Of a DNA stretch of 44,347 nt, positions 7,125-17,720 are shown piece by piece. Within the stretch, counting starts at the first letter, position 1, and every line of letters starts with the position of its first letter. The stretch is from Candidatus Krumholzibacteriota bacterium (lineage in GTDB: Bacteria > Krumholzibacteriota > Krumholzibacteriia > JAJRXK01): assembly GCA_029262065.1 (NCBI GenBank), contig JAJDAC010000035.1, positions 1 to 44,347 of the forward strand, read 5' to 3'. The position numbers and the translations under genes were made by a program. The notes under the pieces were generated by a model, which saw only the letters and a list, made by a program, of their open reading frames with translations, made no database searches and was not told where the DNA came from.

Positions 7125-8285
7125 ATGAGCGATTCGGAAAAGTGGGGAGTCTCCACGAAGTTGGTCCATGCCGGCGAATGGCGTCCGCGCGTGCTGGGGG
7201 CGGTTTCCATGCCCATCTTCCAGACGGCCAACTGGGTGGAAGACGGCGATGCCTCGGACTATCATTCCGTGCACTACATGCGGCTCAGCAACCTGCCAAA
7301 CCATACGGTGCTGGCCGAGAAGATGGCTGCGTTGGAAGGGGCCGAGGCCGCGTTGGTCACGGCCAGCGGCATGGCGGCGATCAGCGCGGCGCTGTTGTCG
7401 GTCCTGAAGGCGGGCGACCACATCCTGGTGCAGGATGAACTGTACGGAGGGACCCACAGTTTCGTGGCCAACGATCTGCCGCGTTGGGGTATCGAAGTGG
7501 ATTTCATCGACGGCGAGAACCCATCGTCGTGGGAGGGCAAACTTCGCCCCAATACCCGCGCCATCTATTTCGAGAGCATCACGAACCCACGGTTGCGCGT
7601 GGCCAACCTCGATGCGGTGGTACCGTTTGCCCAGGCTCACGACCTGGTCTCCATGATCGACAACACCATGGCTACGCCGCTGTACTTCAAGCCGGCCGAA
7701 TGGGGATTCGACCTGTCGCTCCATAGCGCAACGAAGTACCTGAATGGCCACAGCGATATCGTGGGAGGCGTGGTCATCGGCAAGGCCGACCTGGTAACGC
7801 AGGTTCACCACAAGTTGGATCACCTGGGCGGCAGCATGGATACGCATACGTGCTCGTTGCTGCACCGCGGCGTTCGTACGCTTGCGCTTCGACTACCCGC
7901 GCAGACGAAGACGGCCCAGGCTCTGGCCCAGATGTTCCAGGATCATCCCCGGGTGACGCGGGTCTACTATCCTGGGTTGGAAAGCAGCGCGGGGCATGAC
8001 AACGCGAAGCGATTGTTGGCGGGGTACTCGGCCATGGTGAGCATAGATATCGACGGCGGCAAGGAGGCGGCCAAACGTTTCGTGGAACGCTCGCAGCTGA
8101 TTACCGATGCGCCCAGTTTCGGCGGACTGGAAACCCTGGCTACGCGCCCGGCGGCATCGAGTCACGCGGGGCTCACGCCGGCCGAGCGTGCAGAGCGAGG
8201 CATTGCCGACGGACTCGTGCGCCTGTCGGTGGGTATCGAAGATACGGCCGATCTGCTGGCCGACTTCACGCAGGCTCTGGACTAG
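7125..8285 (+). CDS. Cys/Met metabolism PLP-dependent enzyme (cystathionine gamma-lyase/synthase family)
   Basis: The 386-aa protein belongs to the trans-sulfuration family. It shows the PLP lysine in SATKYLNGHSD (K204), the cofactor-binding aspartate in MIDNTMATP (D179), DELYGGT with the ring-stacking tyrosine (Y107) and the C-terminal SFGGLETLATRPAASSH. The usual TR.xNPT motif of the partner-subunit loop is replaced by MRLSNLPNHT, so substrate preference cannot be given. It lies 21 nt after the PPOX gene and probably shares its transcript. Its stop codon overlaps that of the convergent Rieske-ThDP gene by 4 nt. Confidence 0.9.
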   Translation: MSDSEKWGVSTKLVHAGEWRPRVLGAVSMPIFQTANWVEDGDASDYHSVHYMRLSNLPNHTVLAEKMAALEGAEAALVTASGMAAISAALLSVLKAGDHILVQDELYGGTHSFVANDLPRWGIEVDFIDGENPSSWEGKLRPNTRAIYFESITNPRLRVANLDAVVPFAQAHDLVSMIDNTMATPLYFKPAEWGFDLSLHSATKYLNGHSDIVGGVVIGKADLVTQVHHKLDHLGGSMDTHTCSLLHRGVRTLALRLPAQTKTAQALAQMFQDHPRVTRVYYPGLESSAGHDNAKRLLAGYSAMVSIDIDGGKEAAKRFVERSQLITDAPSFGGLETLATRPAASSHAGLTPAERAERGIADGLVRLSVGIEDTADLLADFTQALD

Positions 8286-10225
8286 ACCAGCAACGCGTCG
8301 GTCATGATCTCGAGCATGGCGGGCCCGTCGTGTGCGAACACGCGGGCCAATCCGTCGTCCAACGCATCCATGGATTCGACGCGCACGCCCAGCGCGCCGC
8401 AGTTTTCGGCAAATTTGGAGAAGTTGGGATTGTGCAGCGACGTTTGCCACACGTCCCATTCTCCGGCCCGTTGCTCCTTGCTGATCTTTCCCAGCTCGTG
8501 GTTGTTCAGCAGGATGTGGCGAATGGGCATCTTGTATTTCACAGCCGTGGTCATCTCGGCCAGGTACTGTCCGAAACCACCGTCGCCGGTAATCGCCACG
8601 ATCTCGCGATCGGGGGCGGCGGCCCAGGCACCCATGGCGCCGGGGAAACCAAACCCAATGGAGCCCAGGTAGCCGGACATGAGAACCGACTGCTGCTGGC
8701 ACTCGAAGTACCGGCCAAAGCTGTAGGTGTTGTTGCCCACATCCACCGAGATCACGGCGTTGGGGGAGATGTGGCGCTGCAGCGCGGCAAACACCGCGGC
8801 CGAGTTCAGGCCCTCGCCGCGGTCATCGGCTGCGCGCCGTTCTTTTTCCGCGCGCCAGATCTTCCAACGCTCGGCCAGTTCGCCACGTTGATCCTGGCTG
8901 GCCGTGTGGCCCTTCAATTCCGATTTCAGTCGATGCAACGTGGTGCTGATTTCGCCCCACACCGGAACGTCGACGCCGTGGAACTTGCCCAGCGCCATGC
9001 GGTCGAAGTCGACGTGGATGGTCGTCTTCTTGGGTGTGAGGCCGGTGTGGTTGGAGAACGAAGCGCCCAGCACGATCATCAGGTCGCACTCGTTCATGAA
9101 CCAACTGGCGATGGGGGTTCCACTTCGTCCCAAGACGCCGGCGGCGAGCGGGTGATCGTCGGCGACAAGGCCCTTGGCCTTGAAGGTGGTGAGAATGGGA
9201 GCGCCCAGGGTTTCAGCGAAGGCCAACACGCTTTGACCGTTGAAGCGGGCGCCGTGGCCCACCACGACGATCGGTCGTTTGGCCTGGCGAATGTGATGCA
9301 GAGCCTCCGAGATTGACTCTTCTGGCGCGCTGATGTGGTCGCTGCCGATGCGGCCTTCCGAAGACGATGGCTCGCTGTGCGATGGAAGCGTCTGAACCTC
9401 GTCGGGGAAGATCAGGTGGGCAACATCGCGTTCGACGATGGCGCTTTTCATGGCCAGCGACATGAGCTCGGCGTGCCGACTGCCCGAGAGCACGGTTTGG
9501 CTCCAACGGGCCACGGCCGAGAACGCAGCCGCGAGATCTACTTCCTGAAACGCGCCCGGGCCCAGGACCTGGGTGTCGACCTGACCGGTAAGGGCCAGGA
9601 TGGGGGCGCGATCGACTTTTGCATCCCAAAGACCGGTCATCAGGTTTGTCGCGCCTGGTCCGGCAATGGCCAGACAGGCGGCGGGATTGCCCGTGAGCTT
9701 GGCGTAGGCGGACGCGGCGAACGCGGCAGCTCCTTCGTGGCGAATGCCAATGAACTTCAGGTGGCCGCCTTCTTCGGCTCGGCGCAGAGCCTCGGCGAGG
9801 CCAAGGTTCGAGTGGCCCACCATGCCGAACACATGGGTAATGCCCCAGTTCACCATGGTCTCGACCATCACGTCAGAGACCGTGCGCGTGGGCAGCGCCT
9901 CCGCGGGTACGCCGACATACACACCGTCGGCCCGCTCTTCCACCGGAAACGTGTCCACGCCATCGTCGAAGCCGCCCGGCGGCTTGCCGGTGCAGGGGTG
10001 ATAGTCCCAACCGTGCCACGGACACCGCAGCCACCCGTTCTCAATCGACCCCTCGCCCAGAGGGCCGCCCTGGTGGGGGCAGCGATTGTCCAGGGCGCAG
10101 AGCTTGCCCTCGAAGTTGCTGAGCGCCAAAGAACGATGTCCCGCGGTAACGGTGGTTACCCGCCCGGGGGGAAGTTCCTTTGCGTCCGCCAAAACGCGGA
10201 TCCAGTCCTTCTTGGATTCGGCCAT
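8282..10225 (-). CDS. Rieske [2Fe-2S] domain fused to ThDP-dependent pyruvate-oxidase-like enzyme
   Basis: The 647-aa fusion starts at the ATG at 10225, which has AAGGA 7 nt upstream. Residues ~5-108 are a Rieske domain with both ligand boxes: CPHQGG (C49, H51) and CPWHGW (C68, H71). Residues ~112-645 are a complete ThDP enzyme of the pyruvate oxidase/acetolactate synthase family: catalytic glutamate in IRHEGAAAF (E164), IAGPGATNL, a central nucleotide-binding-like domain, and the ThDP/Mg motif GDGGFG...LNN (about 545-575). The family decarboxylates 2-oxo acids and, in pyruvate oxidases, passes electrons through FAD to quinone. The Rieske domain suggests a one-electron exit or entry route. 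It is divergent from an operon encoding a cytochrome b-Rieske protein. The exact substrate is unknown. Confidence 0.9.
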   Translation of the reverse strand: MAESKKDWIRVLADAKELPPGRVTTVTAGHRSLALSNFEGKLCALDNRCPHQGGPLGEGSIENGWLRCPWHGWDYHPCTGKPPGGFDDGVDTFPVEERADGVYVGVPAEALPTRTVSDVMVETMVNWGITHVFGMVGHSNLGLAEALRRAEEGGHLKFIGIRHEGAAAFAASAYAKLTGNPAACLAIAGPGATNLMTGLWDAKVDRAPILALTGQVDTQVLGPGAFQEVDLAAAFSAVARWSQTVLSGSRHAELMSLAMKSAIVERDVAHLIFPDEVQTLPSHSEPSSSEGRIGSDHISAPEESISEALHHIRQAKRPIVVVGHGARFNGQSVLAFAETLGAPILTTFKAKGLVADDHPLAAGVLGRSGTPIASWFMNECDLMIVLGASFSNHTGLTPKKTTIHVDFDRMALGKFHGVDVPVWGEISTTLHRLKSELKGHTASQDQRGELAERWKIWRAEKERRAADDRGEGLNSAAVFAALQRHISPNAVISVDVGNNTYSFGRYFECQQQSVLMSGYLGSIGFGFPGAMGAWAAAPDREIVAITGDGGFGQYLAEMTTAVKYKMPIRHILLNNHELGKISKEQRAGEWDVWQTSLHNPNFSKFAENCGALGVRVESMDALDDGLARVFAHDGPAMLEIMTDALLV

Positions 10226-10332
10226 GTCACGTTCCTTCATGGGTTTCCGTAGTTCGTTCCAAGCCGAGGGTAAATGGACATCTTTCGTGGGTTCAAGTAA
10301 GTTCGCCAGCAAGTTTGTGAGGTTGCCTACGA

Positions 10333-10608
10333 ATGGGGGGGCACGTGCCGACACAGTGGGCCGAAGTTCTGGTCGCCTTTCTACAGGGATACCTGCTTTT
10401 GGGCCTCGTGTTCGCGCTCGCGTTCGTCACCCGCGGTGTCGCCAAAGTGGATCCAGCCGCCCAAGGTGGCAGCACCTGGGGATTCCGGCTGCTCATCTTG
10501 CCGGCGTCCGTGGCTCTCTGGCCGCTCCTGGCCTGGCGCTGGCTGCGCCGCGCGGGTCCGACCACCGAATCCAATGCCCATCGCGACGCGGCCCGGAGCC
10601 GTTCATGA
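10333..10608 (+). CDS. Small membrane protein, first gene of the redox/lipid operon
   Basis: This 91-aa protein has two hydrophobic helices (about 9-33 and 50-70) with a short loop and a basic, hydrophilic C-terminus. No family is recognised. The ATG at 10333 has no strong ribosome site, and a GTG at 10345 is possible. Its TGA overlaps the ATG of the next gene (ATGA), which supports it being real. It may be a small subunit of the downstream cytochrome b-Rieske complex; this is inferred from position only. Confidence 0.6.
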   Translation: MGGHVPTQWAEVLVAFLQGYLLLGLVFALAFVTRGVAKVDPAAQGGSTWGFRLLILPASVALWPLLAWRWLRRAGPTTESNAHRDAARSRS

Positions 10609-11132
10609 TCGCCGGACTGCGTTCACGCCATCGGGTCACGTTCACGGTTCTGGCCGTGGTGTTGCCGGCGTGCTTCGCGATAGCGTTGGCATCCCGACCC
10701 AGCGCTCATCGAGTCGTCGCGGCCGATTTGATGAACGAACTGACGGGCCCGTCAGTGCATTTCAGAGACGCGCAGCAGTGGAACCCGCTCATCGTAACCG
10801 ACTCCGTCGTCGACGGAATCGCCTTCGAGATGATCCCCGGATGGGTGCGGGTACGAATACCTGACGACGTTGCGCGCCCAGACGTACTGCTCTACTGGTC
10901 GCCAGACCCAGGATCTATCGACCTTGCTGGCGCCAGTCTTGTCAGCGAGGTAGCGGGCGCCGGGTCGCACTTGTTCAGTCTCCTTGCACGGGAATACCTC
11001 AGTCGCCGGAGAGCCGGGACGGAACTCGGAGAGTTCGTTCTCTATTCGCTGGGTCACCGGGAAATTCTGGCCCGCGCAAGGGTCGATGAACTTGCCGTTG
11101 CACCCGCCATTCCGGATGTGATTGACCCATGA
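10605..11132 (+). CDS. Exported or membrane-anchored protein of unknown function
   Basis: The 175-aa product has an uncleaved anchor or signal peptide at about 10-30, followed by a ~145-residue extracytoplasmic domain with alternating hydrophobic strands. No known motif or metal-binding cysteine pattern is visible. The start at 10605 is set by the ATGA overlap with the previous gene, and its own stop overlaps the next gene the same way. Position between two membrane genes suggests a periplasmic subunit of the same complex. Confidence 0.65.
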   Translation: MIAGLRSRHRVTFTVLAVVLPACFAIALASRPSAHRVVAADLMNELTGPSVHFRDAQQWNPLIVTDSVVDGIAFEMIPGWVRVRIPDDVARPDVLLYWSPDPGSIDLAGASLVSEVAGAGSHLFSLLAREYLSRRRAGTELGEFVLYSLGHREILARARVDELAVAPAIPDVIDP

Positions 11133-12160
11133 GCGTCGGCTACCAGGCAGTGCTCTGGAACCGCCAGAAGCGCATCTATGACGTGTGGCTACTTGGTGGC
11201 GTACTCGCGTACATGGCCGCGTTCGTCGCCTTCGGGCTGGCTCTACGCCCCGGTATCACGGCCGAGACCCTGATCATCCGCGCCGCCGGAACCGCGTCCT
11301 TGGTGCTGCTACACGTGATTCTCTCGATCGGCCCGTTGACCCGTTGGGATCGTCGCTTCATGCCGTTGCTGTACAACCGTCGCCACATGGGTGTGACCAT
11401 GTTCTTCCTGGCGCTGGTGCACGGTGTATTCGCCATCTTTCAGTTCCATACGTTGGGCGACACGCATCCGTTGGTGAGTGTGCTCACCAGCAATCCGCGT
11501 ATCGACGACATCAGTCAGTTTCCGTTTCAGCCTCTGGGGCTGGTGGCGCTCATCATTCTCTTTCTCATGGCGTCGACGAGTCACGATTTCTGGTTGCACA
11601 ACCTGAGTGCCCCGGTGTGGAAGGCGCTGCACATGCTGGTGTACGTAGCCTACGCACTGGTCGTGTTGCACGTTGCGCTCGGCGCCCTGCAGTCCGAGAT
11701 GCATCCCGCCTGGCCAACCACGTTTGGAGTGGGTGTGCTCTGGATAGTGGGCCTGCACGTGGCCACTGCATACCGGGAGCAGAGGGCGGTGCCTCGCCCG
11801 GCGGTTCTGGACAACCGCGTGTGCGTGGGTTCGGCGCACGACATTGTCGATGGTTGCGCGCGAGTCGTCGACGTGGCCGGCGAGCGTGTAGCGGTGTTCC
11901 GATACGGCGATCGCGTTTCGGCCGTGTCCAACGTGTGTCAGCACCAGAACGGGCCGTTGGGTGAGGGACGCATCATCGACGGTTGCATCACGTGCCCGTG
12001 GCACGGATACCAGTACGACCCCGCGACCGGCGCATCGCCGCCACCGTTTACCGAAACCATTCCTACGTTCTCGGTGTTCGTGGAAGAAGGCCAGGTGTGG
12101 GTCGATCCCACGCCACATCCGCCCGGTACGCCCATCGAACCCGCCCGGATTCCATCATGA
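11129..12160 (+). CDS. Ferric-reductase-like cytochrome b membrane domain fused to Rieske domain
   Basis: The 343-aa protein has about six membrane helices in residues 18-212 carrying histidines suited to heme ligation (H62, H86, H98, H168, H181), the pattern of the ferric reductase/MsrQ-like family. Residues ~225-335 form a Rieske domain with CQHQNG (C270, H272) and CPWHGY (C289, H292), closely resembling the Rieske domain of the divergent ThDP enzyme. The combination suggests transmembrane electron transfer between a [2Fe-2S] cluster and heme. It overlaps both flanking genes by ATGA. Donor and acceptor are not shown by the sequence. Confidence 0.85.
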   Translation: MSVGYQAVLWNRQKRIYDVWLLGGVLAYMAAFVAFGLALRPGITAETLIIRAAGTASLVLLHVILSIGPLTRWDRRFMPLLYNRRHMGVTMFFLALVHGVFAIFQFHTLGDTHPLVSVLTSNPRIDDISQFPFQPLGLVALIILFLMASTSHDFWLHNLSAPVWKALHMLVYVAYALVVLHVALGALQSEMHPAWPTTFGVGVLWIVGLHVATAYREQRAVPRPAVLDNRVCVGSAHDIVDGCARVVDVAGERVAVFRYGDRVSAVSNVCQHQNGPLGEGRIIDGCITCPWHGYQYDPATGASPPPFTETIPTFSVFVEEGQVWVDPTPHPPGTPIEPARIPS

Positions 12161-12945
12161 GTGGCAACGAAGAGTTCTATGTGGGGTATCACCCGCAGGC
12201 GCCCGCGGGCATCGGCAGGTTCCTGCGCACGCGCATTACCGGGCTCATTCTCCTGGTCGCGTTGGTGGGCGCTGGCTTGGCGGCGTTGCAGAATCCCTTT
12301 CCAGTCAAGGTCTTCGAGTGGGGCGTGCCGCGTGAATTCGTGGGTCTGATGCAAACCAAGCCCTACCCCGAGCTCCTGGTCCGCCGGCCGGGGACGACGA
12401 CGGCGAACTCCAGCGACAGCCAGTGGTCGCGCTACAGCCTGGTGGCCCAGGGCAAGATGGGCGCAGATGAGCTGGTGGCTGGCAACCAGGGGAAGTGGGT
12501 GACGGTCCGAGGGTCTCTGATCTATCGCGGCGGCCAGACCATGATCGAGGTGGCGCCCGGTGGCGTTCAATCGGTAGAGTCGACCGGCGACCCCGCCACC
12601 GCGGTGGTCAACACGGGCGATTTCGAGAATCTGGGTACCCATACCCTGGTGGGGGAGATCGTCGATTCCAAGTGTTGGTTGGGCGTGATGGCCCCTGGTA
12701 GTACCAAACCGCATCGTGCCTGCGCCGCACGATGCATCAGCGGTGGGATTCCTCCGGTTCTGCTGGTACGCGGCGCCGATGGCAGCGCGGTGTACCTGCA
12801 GCTGGCATCGCACGCCGGCGAGGCGGTCAACCAGGATGTGCTTCCCTACGTGGCGGAAATCGTCGAGATAACCGGTGAGATATACCGGGACGGTCAGCGA
12901 TTGATTCTGCAGTTCAATCCCGAAGGGATTCGACGGACGTCGTGA
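12157..12945 (+). CDS. Single-span membrane protein with conserved Cys motif (CAARC type)
   Basis: The 262-aa protein has one membrane helix at about 24-45 and a large extracytoplasmic domain. Its second half carries GEIVDSKCW, then HRACAARC and GGIP, followed by strands ending in an ITGEIYRDG segment, so it has an OB-like beta pattern with three cysteines. The same arrangement occurs in the small exported protein at 35231-35632, so this is a family rather than chance. The motif could bind a metal or heme or form redox-active disulfides. It overlaps the cytochrome b-Rieske gene by ATGA and probably acts with it. Confidence 0.7.
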   Translation: MSGNEEFYVGYHPQAPAGIGRFLRTRITGLILLVALVGAGLAALQNPFPVKVFEWGVPREFVGLMQTKPYPELLVRRPGTTTANSSDSQWSRYSLVAQGKMGADELVAGNQGKWVTVRGSLIYRGGQTMIEVAPGGVQSVESTGDPATAVVNTGDFENLGTHTLVGEIVDSKCWLGVMAPGSTKPHRACAARCISGGIPPVLLVRGADGSAVYLQLASHAGEAVNQDVLPYVAEIVEITGEIYRDGQRLILQFNPEGIRRTS

Positions 12946-13775
12946 GTATGAAGCCAGAGCCGTTGCCGCGGTCGTTCGAGACCAGGCACCCCGCGCGCAA
13001 TCGCCGGCCGGATTTCCAGCCGTCCGCGGGTGGATACCAGTGCCGCTTCGTGAATTCCGATGAGGATCTCCAACGCGTGTTGAGACTACGGTATGAGGTG
13101 TTCAACCTCGAGTTGGGCGAAGGGCTCGATGAGTCGCATGCGCTTGGACTGGACTGTGACCGATTCGACGCGCACTGCGATCACCTGATGGTGGTACACG
13201 AGGCTACCAATGAAGTAGTCGGTACGTACCGATTGCAGTTGTACCAGGCGGCCATGGCCGGACAAGGTTTCTATTCGGCCCAGGAGTTCCAGCTGGACGC
13301 GCTACCCATTCGGGTGCTCGAGGCGTCGTTGGAGATTGGTCGCGCGAGCATTGCTCGCGAGCATCGTCATCGCTACGTACTGCTGTTGTTGTGGCAGGGT
13401 CTTACCGCGTATGCACTGTCCAATCGGGCGCGGTACATGTTTGGTTGTTGTAGCCTCACCAGTCAGGATGCAGCGGAAGGCACCGTGGCGTACGAGCACC
13501 TCATTCGCAACAGCCTGGTACACGAGCAACTGCATGTGCCACCGCAGCCCGAGGTTGCCTGCGACATCGTGGAGAGCGCCAGGGTTGGATGGAAAGACTA
13601 CAGACTCCCGAAACTGTTTCGTACGTACCTCAGGTATGGAGTGAAGGTGTGCGGCCCGCCGGCTATCGATCGCGAGTTCAAGACCATCGACTTCCTGGCG
13701 TTGCTGGACGTAGTTGAGCTTACATCCACCATCCTGGTGCCCATGCACGACGGCGATCTGGACCTCTTGCCATGA
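12942..13775 (+). CDS. olsB: OlsB-like N-acyltransferase (ornithine/amino-acid lipid synthesis)
   Basis: This 277-aa GNAT-fold protein is of the Acetyltransf_5/hemolysin-like type. Members such as OlsB and GlsB transfer a 3-hydroxyacyl chain from ACP to the amino group of ornithine or glycine, the first step of aminolipid synthesis. Supporting segments are LRYEVFNLELGEG, a DxDxFDxxCDHL region and VVGTYRL, followed by an EIGRASI strand typical of the family. The GTG at 12942 overlaps the previous stop (GTGA); an ATG at 12948 is equally possible. The next gene encodes the partner O-acyltransferase. The acceptor amino acid cannot be read from sequence. Confidence 0.82.
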   Translation: MSMKPEPLPRSFETRHPARNRRPDFQPSAGGYQCRFVNSDEDLQRVLRLRYEVFNLELGEGLDESHALGLDCDRFDAHCDHLMVVHEATNEVVGTYRLQLYQAAMAGQGFYSAQEFQLDALPIRVLEASLEIGRASIAREHRHRYVLLLLWQGLTAYALSNRARYMFGCCSLTSQDAAEGTVAYEHLIRNSLVHEQLHVPPQPEVACDIVESARVGWKDYRLPKLFRTYLRYGVKVCGPPAIDREFKTIDFLALLDVVELTSTILVPMHDGDLDLLP

Positions 13776-14590
13776 GCCACGCTCGTGCCGTGGGGCGGCT
13801 GCTCATCCTGGCTCCGTTTACCCTGGTCATGTATCTGATCTACCTGGTGACGCGCGTACTCCGGCTGGTTTCGTCGCGCCGCGCATTGGTGGTCAAGGCC
13901 TGGTGTTTCCAGACGTGGTCGCGCGGTGTAGTCCATACTATTGGATTGACCGTGCATCAAAAGGGTGGCGCTCCTCCCACGCCGTTTTTCCTGGTAACCA
14001 ACCACTCCAGCTACCTTGACGTGATCGTGCTGTCGAGTTGCGCGCCGTGCTGGTTCGTGGCCAAGTCAGAAGTCGCCCGCTGGCCGGTGCTTGGTTATCT
14101 TGCCCAGACCATGAATACGATCTTCATTGACCGGTCGCTCCGTGCCGACGTTCCCCGCGTGGTACGGCGCATGCAGAACGCGCTCGGCGCCGATCAGGGC
14201 ATCGTGTTCTTTCCTGAGGGAACCAGTAGCGACGGGACCGGCGTGCTGCCGTTCAAGAGTTCATTGTTCGAGGCGCCGGCCAGCCTGGGGGCCGATGTGT
14301 GGTGTGGTCGTCTGAACTACACCAGCGGCGACCCCGATCGTCCCGCGGTTTCACACGTTTGCTGGTGGGGTGACATGGGATTCGTGGGACATTTCTATGG
14401 GCTGTTGCAGATTCCGGCGGCCCGAGTCGACATAGAATTTCATCCCAAACCGGTGGCGGCGGCCGATCGCAAGACGATGGCCCAACGAACCTTTGACGTC
14501 GTAAGCAAGGGCCTATCGGCATCCGTGGTCGAGGTACCGGTAGTCGAGTCGGGTGGGCTTGCACGGGCAGCCACCGGAGGTGGGGAATGA
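13772..14590 (+). CDS. olsA: OlsA-like 1-acyl-glycerol-3-phosphate O-acyltransferase (PlsC family)
   Basis: The 272-aa PlsC-family enzyme has an N-terminal membrane helix (about 9-28), the catalytic NHSSYLD motif (H78, D83) and the acyl-acceptor motif FPEGTSS (147-153). Directly after the OlsB-like gene, with an ATGA overlap, it most likely adds the second acyl chain to lyso-ornithine or lyso-glycine lipid. A role as an ordinary lysophosphatidic acid acyltransferase is possible from sequence alone; the pairing favours OlsA/GlsA. Confidence 0.82.
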   Translation: MSHARAVGRLLILAPFTLVMYLIYLVTRVLRLVSSRRALVVKAWCFQTWSRGVVHTIGLTVHQKGGAPPTPFFLVTNHSSYLDVIVLSSCAPCWFVAKSEVARWPVLGYLAQTMNTIFIDRSLRADVPRVVRRMQNALGADQGIVFFPEGTSSDGTGVLPFKSSLFEAPASLGADVWCGRLNYTSGDPDRPAVSHVCWWGDMGFVGHFYGLLQIPAARVDIEFHPKPVAAADRKTMAQRTFDVVSKGLSASVVEVPVVESGGLARAATGGGE

Positions 14591-15105
14591 GCGCCTGGAA
14601 CCTGGGCGTCGAACTGAACTGTGATCTGCTTGAAACCATGGCCGAACAGGTCACTGGTCTGTCGCCCGAAGTCTATTCGACTCCCAACGAGTTGGTGGGT
14701 TCGGTGGGAGTGGGAAGTCACGTGCGCCACTGCATGGATTTCTATGGTGCGTTCCTGGCCGGCGCGGCCCAGGGACGGGTGGACTACGACGCGCGTACGC
14801 GGCAGCTTGAACTGGAGCAGGACCCAAGCGAGGCCGGAAAGGTACTGGCGCAGCTGCCCCCACGCTTGCGCGCGTTGGCGCCGCTCGAAGCCATGGTGGT
14901 TCGCCTGGATGCGGTTGACGATGACCCCGTCCATTGGTCGCCGACCTCGGGCGTACGGGAGTTGCGGTTCCTGGCCGCGCACACGGTACATCACGCGGCC
15001 ATGATTGCCATGTTGCTGCGCCTGGCCGGCGTGGAGATACCCACGGACTTTGGCATTGCCCCCTCGACCTTGCTTCACTGGAAGGACGCACAGGCGCGGG
15101 CCTGA
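14587..15105 (+). CDS. DinB-superfamily protein
   Basis: The 172-aa helical-bundle protein carries the DinB-type metal-binding histidine pattern: H45 (with H48) near the end of the second helix and H132/H135/H136 in AHTVHHAAM. Family members are metal-dependent thiol transferases or have unknown substrates. The start is set by the ATGA overlap with the acyltransferase gene. Its presence in a lipid/redox operon is odd; a thiol- or metal-linked role is possible but unproven. Confidence 0.8.
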   Translation: MSAWNLGVELNCDLLETMAEQVTGLSPEVYSTPNELVGSVGVGSHVRHCMDFYGAFLAGAAQGRVDYDARTRQLELEQDPSEAGKVLAQLPPRLRALAPLEAMVVRLDAVDDDPVHWSPTSGVRELRFLAAHTVHHAAMIAMLLRLAGVEIPTDFGIAPSTLLHWKDAQARA

Positions 15106-15116
15106 GCGTCGGCTTC

Positions 15117-17720
15117 ATGAAGCGTAGGATCGCGTTTGGTCTGTACGCGGGGCTTCTGCTTCTGACGCACACCTGGGCGCCTTTGTCGCCTTCGCGCGAA
15201 AAGCCTGTCGCGGTCGACACCATTGCCATTGCCCACGCCAACGGCGAGCGTGGCGTTCTGGCCTACCGCGAGAGCGGCGACCCCCGGGGGCCGGTGTTGC
15301 TGTTGCTGCACGGGAGCCCGGGCGGCAGCGACAACTTTGACCAGTTGCGGGCCCAGTTACCTTCGAACCTTCGCTGCATCGCGGTAGACATGCCCGGGTT
15401 CGGCTTCTCCACGCCCGATCCGGATGGCTTCTCCATTGTTACCCATGCCAAGGCCACACTTGGCCTGCTCGACCGGCTAAATATCGATCGCGCCCACGTC
15501 GTTGGCTTCAGCATGGGCGGTGGCGTAGCCCTGTCCATGATCGACCTGGCCCCGCAGCGTGTGGTGTCGCTTACGCTGTTGGCCGGTCTGGGTGTGCAGG
15601 AGTTGGAGTTGCTGGGCAACTACACTCTCAACCATGCGGTGCACGGTATTTCGCTGGCCGGAGCGTGGGTCATGGAGAACGCCGTGCCGCACCTGGGCAA
15701 ATTGCAGGGCTGGCCGCTGGGCATGGCCTACGCGTGTAACTTCTACCAAACAGACCAGCGCCCCCTGCGAGGCATTCTGGAGCGACTCGAGATCCCGACA
15801 CTCATTCTCCACGGTCGCGAAGACCCCCTGGTTCCCTACTCCGCCGCCGTCGAACACGCGCGCGTCGTGCCCCATGCCCGGCTCGTGACCTACGAGTCCG
15901 ATCATTTCCTGGTTTGGAATGAGACCGAGGCGGTGGCGCGCGACCTCAACGAATTCGTCGCGCAGGTTGAGTCGGGCACGGCGCCACGCCGGATTGATGC
16001 ATCGGCCGAGCGGGTGGCACGCGCAAGCCTTACCTACGCGCAGGCGGGAACCGCGCGTCGAACGGGCATCGCCGTGGTCGTGTTGTTGTTGGTGCTGGTG
16101 CTGGGCACGTTCCTGGCCGAAGACCTCACTTGTATCTCGGCCGGATTGGCCGTGGCCTACGGGCAGATCAGCTGGGGGCAAGCGGTGGGGGCGTGCTTCT
16201 TCGGCATCTTCTTTGGCGACATGATGCTCTATGGACTGGGCCGCTGGCTGCGCCGAGGCCACCACCTGCGGGCACCGTTGTCGTGGTTCGTGCACGAAGA
16301 CCGTCTGAATCGCGCCGCGAACTGGTTCGAGCGCCGCGGTTGGATGGCCATCGTGCTCAGCCGTTTCCTGCCCGGTACACGATTGCCCACCTATGTCGCG
16401 GCGGGGGCTTTGCGGGCGAACTTCTGGTTGTTCACGCTGTACTTCTTTCTGGCGGTTGCGATCTGGACACCGGCCGTGGTTTCGCTCGCGTCTTGGCTGG
16501 GGGCCTCAGCCATTGGCCGCTGGGAGACTTTTCAGCGCGTGTCGGTCGTGCTGATCCTGGCCGTGTTGGTCGCGACGTTCGTGCTCATGCAGATCGTGGT
16601 TCCCCTGTTCACCTGGAGAGGGCGGCGCGACCTGGTGGCGCGGTGGCGTCGGTTCACGCGTTGGGAGTTCTGGCCCGCGTGGGCGTTCTATCCGCCGCTG
16701 GTTGTATACGTGGCGGGTCTGGCCTTGCGGCACCGGAGCCTGACGGTGGTCACGGCGGTCAACCCCGCGATTCATACGGGGGGGCTGGTGGGGGAATCGA
16801 AGGCCAGCATCCTGGCCGGGCTGAGCCCTCATCCCGCGGTGGCCGCCTGGGCTCTGCTCGACTCGTCTCCGCACGAATCGCGGGTCGCGCGGTTGCAGGA
16901 GTTCATGACGGCAAACTCGTTGGACTACCCGATCGTACTGAAGCCGGACGTCGGCGAGCGCGGGCGCGGCGTACGCATCGTCGATTCGTCGGGGCAGGCC
17001 ACCGACGTACTGCGTTCGGACCCGCAACGACTCATTGCGCAGGAGTACGTGGGGGGGGCGGAGTACGGGGTGTTCTACGTCCGCCATCCCGATCAGGCAC
17101 ACGGTCGCATCATCTCCGTAACGCACAAGGTCATGCCGCACGTCATCGGTGACGGTTCGTCGGACCTGGAAACGTTGATCCTGCGGGACGAGCGCGCGGT
17201 GATCATGGCCAATGAATACTTTCGCGCCAACGCTGGTCGGTTGGCCTGGGTGCCCGATCGCGGTGAGTCCGTGAAGCTGGTGGACCTGGGGACGCACTGT
17301 CTGGGAGCGGTGTTCCTGGACGGGAATCACCTCATTACTCCGGATCTGACGGCCGCGGTGGACGAGATGAGCCGCGGCTTCGAGGGGTTCTTCTTTGGGC
17401 GCTACGACCTGAGGGTTCCCGACGAGGCCAGCCTGCAGGCGGGGCAGGGCCTGAAGGTCATGGAGCTGAATGGGCTGACTTCCGAAGCGACCCATATCTA
17501 TGATCCGCGCCATTCGTGGTGGGTGGCCCAGCGCACGCTGCGACGACAATGGTCGCTTGCGTTTTCCATCGCCGTCGCCAATCGTGCGCGGGGAACGGTA
17601 CCGACTTCGTGGCGTACCCTGTGGCCCCTTCTGCGCGACCACCTGCGCGGCAAAGCAGCGGTGGCCGGACCCATTTCAAACGAACCCAACGCCGAAAGGG
17701 TGCACGCCGATGGCGCCTGA
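15117..17720 (+). CDS. Alpha/beta hydrolase - DedA/VTT membrane domain - ATP-grasp-like fusion
   Basis: This 867-aa protein contains three modules. Residues ~35-285 form an alpha/beta hydrolase with oxyanion HGSPGG, nucleophile elbow GFSMGG (S132), D236 in GREDPLVP and H263 in SDHF, so the catalytic triad looks intact. An N-terminal hydrophobic segment (5-17) suggests export or anchoring. Residues ~315-500 are a DedA/VTT domain with FFGDMMLYGLGRWLRRG and LSRFLPGTRLP; DedA proteins translocate lipid carriers. Residues ~590-800 resemble ATP-grasp, with YPIVLKPDVGERGRG (K609) and VMELNGLTSE (E783, N785). The start ATG at 15117 lies 11 nt after the DinB-like gene. Location beside aminolipid acyltransferases suggests lipid modification or transport; the reaction is unknown. 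Confidence 0.8.
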   Translation: MKRRIAFGLYAGLLLLTHTWAPLSPSREKPVAVDTIAIAHANGERGVLAYRESGDPRGPVLLLLHGSPGGSDNFDQLRAQLPSNLRCIAVDMPGFGFSTPDPDGFSIVTHAKATLGLLDRLNIDRAHVVGFSMGGGVALSMIDLAPQRVVSLTLLAGLGVQELELLGNYTLNHAVHGISLAGAWVMENAVPHLGKLQGWPLGMAYACNFYQTDQRPLRGILERLEIPTLILHGREDPLVPYSAAVEHARVVPHARLVTYESDHFLVWNETEAVARDLNEFVAQVESGTAPRRIDASAERVARASLTYAQAGTARRTGIAVVVLLLVLVLGTFLAEDLTCISAGLAVAYGQISWGQAVGACFFGIFFGDMMLYGLGRWLRRGHHLRAPLSWFVHEDRLNRAANWFERRGWMAIVLSRFLPGTRLPTYVAAGALRANFWLFTLYFFLAVAIWTPAVVSLASWLGASAIGRWETFQRVSVVLILAVLVATFVLMQIVVPLFTWRGRRDLVARWRRFTRWEFWPAWAFYPPLVVYVAGLALRHRSLTVVTAVNPAIHTGGLVGESKASILAGLSPHPAVAAWALLDSSPHESRVARLQEFMTANSLDYPIVLKPDVGERGRGVRIVDSSGQATDVLRSDPQRLIAQEYVGGAEYGVFYVRHPDQAHGRIISVTHKVMPHVIGDGSSDLETLILRDERAVIMANEYFRANAGRLAWVPDRGESVKLVDLGTHCLGAVFLDGNHLITPDLTAAVDEMSRGFEGFFFGRYDLRVPDEASLQAGQGLKVMELNGLTSEATHIYDPRHSWWVAQRTLRRQWSLAFSIAVANRARGTVPTSWRTLWPLLRDHLRGKAAVAGPISNEPNAERVHADGA

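Follow-up and report, generated by a model that had tools for sequence, protein, structure and literature searches.

We found that one open reading frame in the window (the whole 44,347-nucleotide stretch of DNA that was analyzed) joins an alpha/beta hydrolase, a DedA/VTT membrane domain and an ATP-grasp domain in a single chain, with the catalytic residues of both enzyme domains intact, and that this chain belongs to a conserved gene cassette linked to OlsB, OlsA or OlsF. The system is a novel combination built from known superfamilies, and its family is widespread and unnamed. We rate at about an even chance the explanation that we favor, namely that the protein is a membrane-bound enzyme that modifies and translocates the head group of an acyloxyacyl aminolipid, with the hydrolase as an accessory. 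The protein and its parts are as follows:

15117..17720, + strand: hydrolase-VTT-ATP-grasp fusion, 867 aa (Pfam domains, homologous fusions, AF2 model)
15123..15185, + strand: N-terminal hydrophobic helix, residues 3-23, signal-anchor-like, with KRR on its N-side (model; charge bias in homologues)
15204..15986, + strand: alpha/beta hydrolase domain, about residues 30-290 (Abhydrolase_1 4.7e-28, triad)
16068..16607, + strand: DedA/VTT domain with C-terminal helices, about residues 318-497; E335, R416, R422, W450 (VTT_dom, UptA model, conservation)
16650..17588, + strand: ATP-grasp domain, residues 512-824; K609, E649, D764, E783, N785 (profile, structure model, conservation)

The frame (15117-17720) is free of internal stops, and the full-length AF2 model of the fusion has a pLDDT of 90.8. 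An earlier sequence-only reading had assigned the three domains from a Ser-Asp-His triad, DedA motifs and ATP-grasp signatures; each of these was recovered in the one frame, and the assignment was right. Moreover, the hydrolase-VTT-ATP-grasp arrangement occurs in 38 loci, and the parts, fused or as neighboring genes, occur together in most homologues rather than in unrelated contexts. The one observation that might point to a chance fusion, a frameshift or an assembly artefact is that the ATP-grasp match falls below the cut-off in single-sequence Pfam. Since a single frame holds all three domains and the fusion recurs in 38 loci from many assemblies and several phyla, with models of high confidence, we rule out such an artefact as vanishingly improbable. 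Thus, the three-part protein is real.

The third domain belongs to the ATP-grasp superfamily. Because the single-sequence Pfam match was sub-threshold (ATP-grasp_3, 18.5 bits vs 23.2), we used a family profile and a predicted model in its place. The profile, built from 78 relatives, matched PDB structures of CphA2, CphA1 and GshAB (4e-9) and covered both halves of the ATP-grasp fold, and the AF2 model of the domain (mean pLDDT 96.2) has this fold. The best solved structural match was the cyanophycin synthetase CphA1 (Foldseek 4e-11; superposition Z 17.6, rmsd 4.1 over 272 residues); GshAB, ArgX/LysX and RimK came next. Thus, the ATP-grasp-like call made from the letters stands up to profile search, and the structure search agrees with it. 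NCBIfam likewise placed cyanophycin synthetase over the C-terminal part (1.4e-9). The signatures VLKPDVGERGRG and MELNG are at the expected positions, and K609, R615, G616, Q642, E649, K671, D764, E783 and N785 are invariant (83/83 sampled relatives), so that the ATP-binding lysine, the glycine-rich loop and the metal-binding acidic and Asn residues of the superfamily are all in place. R515, E517, W519, P520, H727, R762 and Y795 are also invariant in these 83 relatives and look family-specific. As none of the named subfamilies (cyanophycin synthetase, RimK, Ddl and others) scored above its curated cut-off (best TIGR02068, 36.6 bits vs 850), we file the domain only as ATP-grasp. ATP-grasp enzymes phosphorylate a carboxylate and then couple it to a nucleophile, usually an amine.

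The membrane domain is of the DedA/VTT type. Residues 343-457 match VTT_dom (PF09335; 5.2e-16, 59.7 bits vs a gathering score of 33.9), and the DedA motifs FFGD..LYGLGR and RFLPGTR are present. The Glu of the first re-entrant helix and the two Arg of the second, which mark DedA proteins, are conserved among the 72 VTT-bearing members (E335, 71/72; R416, 71/72; R422, 72/72). By spacing, E335, R416, R422 and W450 equate with E32, R112, R118 and W146 of UptA, residues that affect binding of undecaprenyl phosphate (PMC11474028). A 2023 DedA survey assigns the two arginines to the UndP-type subfamily (PMC10127716). The best NCBIfam match to the VTT domain is the UptA model (1e-12), far under its equivalog cut-off. 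Judged by these residues, the domain could bind either a lipid carboxylate or a phosphate.

The alpha/beta hydrolase match spans residues 59-275, and the domain retains its triad, S132, D236 and H263, as judged by the Pfam fold match and the alignment of homologues, and these residues are conserved in 36, 38 and 37 of the 38 sampled fusions, respectively. Among solved structures, esterases and related hydrolases are closest to it. The serine nucleophile is lost only in two relatives from the same family, L002 (1480-4131; GVGQGG) and L003 (1471-4035; ATADAA), while the window keeps GFSMGG. A dead hydrolase, the reading given by these first relatives, is rejected for the family as a whole, since the serine is present in 36/38; the loss of serine in the two does imply that hydrolysis is dispensable in some lineages. 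The hydrolase is also an optional part, missing from the chain in 45/83 sampled loci. The helix that precedes it is more positive on its N-side in 17/25 fusions, and the reverse is seen in 3/25. This signal-anchor-like bias suggests a periplasmic hydrolase and a cytoplasmic ATP-grasp domain, such that one chain might act at both faces of the membrane.

To survey homologues, we scanned GTDB contigs using the C-terminal domain as seed and retained the 80 best further loci, which come from Planctomycetota, Acidobacteriota, Verrucomicrobiota, Gemmatimonadota, Pseudomonadota and others; the proportions in this sample are not a census. The 83 sampled members comprise 38 hydrolase-VTT-ATP-grasp fusions, 34 VTT-ATP-grasp fusions and 11 ATP-grasp domains alone. 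Two genomes of the same family as the window encode the same protein at 42-43% identity, in each case 3' of OlsB-like and OlsA-like genes. Paracoccus denitrificans encodes the three parts as separate neighboring genes, and in Salinivibrio adjacent, overlapping genes encode the VTT and ATP-grasp parts, with DinB and NRDE after them. On a maximum-likelihood tree of 103 ATP-grasp domains, the hydrolase label must change 13 times, and well-supported branches force at least 6 of these changes; a single origin of the fusion is therefore unsupported, and fusions must have formed or broken up repeatedly, as expected if the parts work together.

In the window, five closely packed genes, in which neighbors overlap by 4 bases, precede the fusion:

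11129..12160, + strand: ferric-reductase-like membrane domain fused to a Rieske domain (Pfam; 21 loci)
12157..12945, + strand: U12, a conserved membrane-anchored protein, family unplaced (19 loci; no Pfam match)
12942..13775, + strand: OlsB-like N-acyltransferase (PF13444 4.9e-30; NF052555 6e-39)
13772..14590, + strand: OlsA-like O-acyltransferase (NF052552 6e-44, under the equivalog cut-off; HX4D and FPEGT motifs conserved)
14587..15105, + strand: DinB-like protein with conserved His 48, 132, 135 and 136 (sub-threshold DinB_2/DinB 1e-3; near-constant neighbor, 57 loci)

Only 11 bases separate the end of the DinB-like gene from the start of the fusion. The two acyltransferase genes, which overlap by 4 bases, encode a GNAT (PF13444, 4.9e-30) and a PlsC-type acyltransferase (PF01553, 3.8e-23) in tandem; the first of the two is described only as OlsB-like, since it falls under the curated OlsB equivalog cut-off (NF052555, 134 bits vs 320). 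Enzymes related to OlsB and OlsA make glycine, glutamine and other aminolipids. The ferric-reductase/Rieske protein and U12, which carries invariant Cys/His, might supply electrons to a lipid-modifying step. Upstream, on the reverse strand (8282-10354, -), is a 690-aa frame in which a Rieske [2Fe-2S] domain is fused to a complete three-domain thiamine-pyrophosphate enzyme, an unusual pairing. Many loci have an NRDE gene between DinB and the fusion, but the window lacks it; a TANGO2-family gene, with a weak NCBIfam match to C45 acyltransferase/hydrolase, is found off the cluster in the same genome (L132; G000:C7:128186-128836).

We defined the cassette by clustering all ORFs around the sampled loci. 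The recurrent neighbors were DinB (57 loci), OlsB (55), TANGO2/NRDE (44), OlsA (38) and, at about 20 loci each, the ferric-reductase/Rieske and U12 pair, a YHS-domain protein and a DoxX-like protein. OlsB or OlsF was within about 6 kb in 40 of the 54 loci with full flanks, and OlsB/OlsF or DinB was near in 51/54. The unfused order VTT, ATP-grasp, DinB, NRDE and then OlsF occurs in 8/12 sampled Pseudomonadota genomes and also in Photobacterium; in the modules where they were read, YHS and DoxX-like genes separate NRDE from OlsF. The YHS-domain protein and the DoxX-like membrane protein are adjacent in the cassette of Pseudomonadota and Verrucomicrobiota (L116, 8345-9245; L085, 2754-3764; L073, L084-L088). 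Since the cassette is found with OlsB and OlsA or with OlsF, its association is with ornithine-lipid-type synthesis as such and not with one synthase. Some members, such as the one on a Komagataeibacter plasmid, have no recognizable aminolipid gene nearby. In Vibrionaceae (L131, L100), the cassette adjoins OlsF. The OlsF of V. cholerae, VCA0646, is encoded last in a four-gene operon, vca0646-0649, which is activated by quorum sensing and causes cell death when overexpressed, and the function of the partners of VCA0646 is not known there (PMC11573629, PMC12186959). We sought VCA0647-0649 through published primer sequences and found nothing.

The association extends to whole genomes. PF13444, the OlsB/OlsF-type N-acyltransferase domain, was present in 37 of 40 carrier genomes, picked mostly for the absence of a nearby OlsB, and often in OlsF-sized ORFs; the three without it are possibly incomplete. 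Among sampled Pseudomonadota, PF13444 occurred in 13/13 carriers vs 191/299 overall (one-sided Fisher p 0.0025), and among Verrucomicrobiota in 18/21 carriers vs 112/194 (p 0.004), both tests being rough in that they ignore shared ancestry. The three Verrucomicrobiota carriers without PF13444 have divergent or partial members. In the phylum of the window, the ATP-grasp family was found in 3/80 genomes, with PF13444 in the same 3 and in 0/77 others, although these genes are linked and the genomes related, such that the counts are not independent. The guess in the sequence-only reading that the protein serves the aminolipid of the adjacent acyltransferases is thus well supported by both gene neighborhood and genome co-occurrence. 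Two small verrucomicrobial genomes, G268 (L125) and G295 (L126), have a divergent triple fusion in frames of 1036-1072 aa with no PF13444 found; a different lipid substrate is possible there.

The mechanism that we infer would begin on the cytoplasmic side, where OlsB and OlsA (elsewhere OlsF) would make an N-acyl amino acid lipid. The cytoplasmic ATP-grasp domain would then use ATP to form an acyl phosphate and from it an amide at the lipid head group. Because the aminolipid offers a free carboxylate and, if it is ornithine lipid, a free amine, ligation could run in either direction: the lipid's own alpha-carboxylate could be joined to an added amine, or the carboxylate of an added amino acid to the side-chain amine of the lipid. 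The fused VTT domain would flip the product (or the acceptor) across the inner membrane, and in this lineage the hydrolase, probably at the periplasmic face, would trim or turn over the translocated lipid.

Against this explanation stand the carriers without PF13444, the members with no aminolipid gene nearby, the loss of the hydrolase serine in the two same-family relatives and the fact that the DedA residues fit undecaprenyl phosphate too. As a rival, we considered that the VTT domain might act like UptA and recycle undecaprenyl phosphate, or else a different phospho-lipid, with the ATP-grasp domain modifying an envelope intermediate other than an aminolipid, and OlsBA or OlsF co-regulated under envelope or phosphate stress. 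We regard this as unlikely, and retain it at that level because the VTT residues could bind either group. UptA is the best NCBIfam match, both arginines assigned to the UndP flippases are conserved (PMC10127716), and the ATP-grasp fold resembles the D-Ala-D-Ala ligases of cell-wall synthesis, among others. However, the UptA score is far from equivalog level, and the tight linkage and co-occurrence are with OlsB and OlsF, not with peptidoglycan or O-antigen genes.

Two further alternatives give the hydrolase a central role, and each seems to us distinctly improbable. In the first, the protein would be a second route to aminolipids, proposed because the OlsH/OlsI pathway, which can make ornithine lipid, uses an ATP-dependent GH3-type ligase and an alpha/beta hydrolase (PMC12493201): the ATP-grasp domain would join a free fatty acid to an amino acid, as OlsH does, and the hydrolase would O-acylate the product, as OlsI does. 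The verrucomicrobial triple fusions without PF13444 would suit such a route, but OlsB or OlsF is already present in nearly every carrier, and the ATP-grasp structures closest to this one belong to ligases that act on amino acids or peptides. The other, comparably improbable, is degradation or recycling, in which the hydrolase would cut the ester-linked fatty acid outside, the VTT domain would return the lyso-lipid, and the ATP-grasp domain would tag or re-modify it. This agrees with the esterase-like relatives of the hydrolase, with conservation of the triad in most fusions and with the signal-anchor-like N-terminus. Both are opposed by the absence of a hydrolase from the chain in most sampled members; for this reason, hydrolysis cannot be the core activity.

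A more general role can be proposed for the family. Tentatively, and at somewhat below an even chance, we suggest that membrane-attached ATP-grasp ligases add a second amide to ornithine-type lipids, giving dipeptide-like or taurine-like heads, and export the product through the fused or partner DedA protein. Aminolipids are known that carry ornithine, glycine, glutamine, lysine, serine-glycine or ornithine-taurine as the head group, and the literature found names no gene for the second amide of the last two (PMC12493201, PMC4484230). Within the literature covered, we found no enzyme that couples a second unit to the head group of an aminolipid through an amide bond, and no flippase that carries ornithine lipids across the inner membrane; the family is a candidate for the two activities, whether as a single chain or as a pair of adjacent genes. 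Culturable carriers (Solimonas, Hydrocarboniphaga, Salinivibrio, Azospirillum and Paracoccus) make the reaction directly testable. Ornithine lipids influence how cells economize on phosphate, how well they tolerate stress and how susceptible they are to polymyxin. We found no publication describing the family, the fusion or the cassette when ATP-grasp was searched together with ornithine lipid or DedA, in a literature whose coverage was incomplete, such that absence is no proof. The available part of the 2023 survey names DedA fusions to rhodanese, PAP2 and pyridine-nucleotide oxidoreductase, with ATP-grasp fusions unmentioned there (PMC10127716).

Each part of this system has known relatives from which it differs. 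With the ATP-grasp peptide ligases (CphA/CphA2, GshAB, RimK/LysX and D-Ala-D-Ala ligase), the family shares the fold, the ATP-binding lysine, the glycine-rich loop and the metal-binding acidic residues and Asn, but it is only about 18% identical to them, begins with a membrane-linked RWEFWP helix, has its own invariant H727, R762 and Y795, and is fused or adjacent to a VTT domain. Similarly, the VTT domain has in common with UptA, PetA and YghB/YqjA the conserved Glu, two Arg and Trp at positions important in UptA, but it differs from them in being joined to an ATP-grasp ligase, by fusion or as its neighbor, and in its association with aminolipid genes. Of the ornithine-lipid enzymes, OlsB/OlsA or OlsF are encoded beside the fusion, and OlsI, like the fusion, uses an alpha/beta hydrolase fold; unlike this cassette, none of the OlsBA, OlsF and OlsH/OlsI pathways is reported with an ATP-grasp enzyme or a DedA protein. 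The closest functional analogy is with MprF, the aminoacyl-phospholipid synthase-flippase, in that one chain or pair would modify and flip a lipid head group. Neither the LPG-synthase catalytic domain nor the TM domain of MprF was detected by Pfam or NCBIfam in the fusion or its pieces; MprF uses aminoacyl-tRNA and unrelated domains, whereas this protein combines ATP-grasp and VTT. If the general role proposed above holds, which we consider a little less probable than its opposite, the family would be a tRNA-independent, phosphorus-free counterpart of MprF across Planctomycetota, Acidobacteriota, Verrucomicrobiota, Gemmatimonadota and Pseudomonadota.
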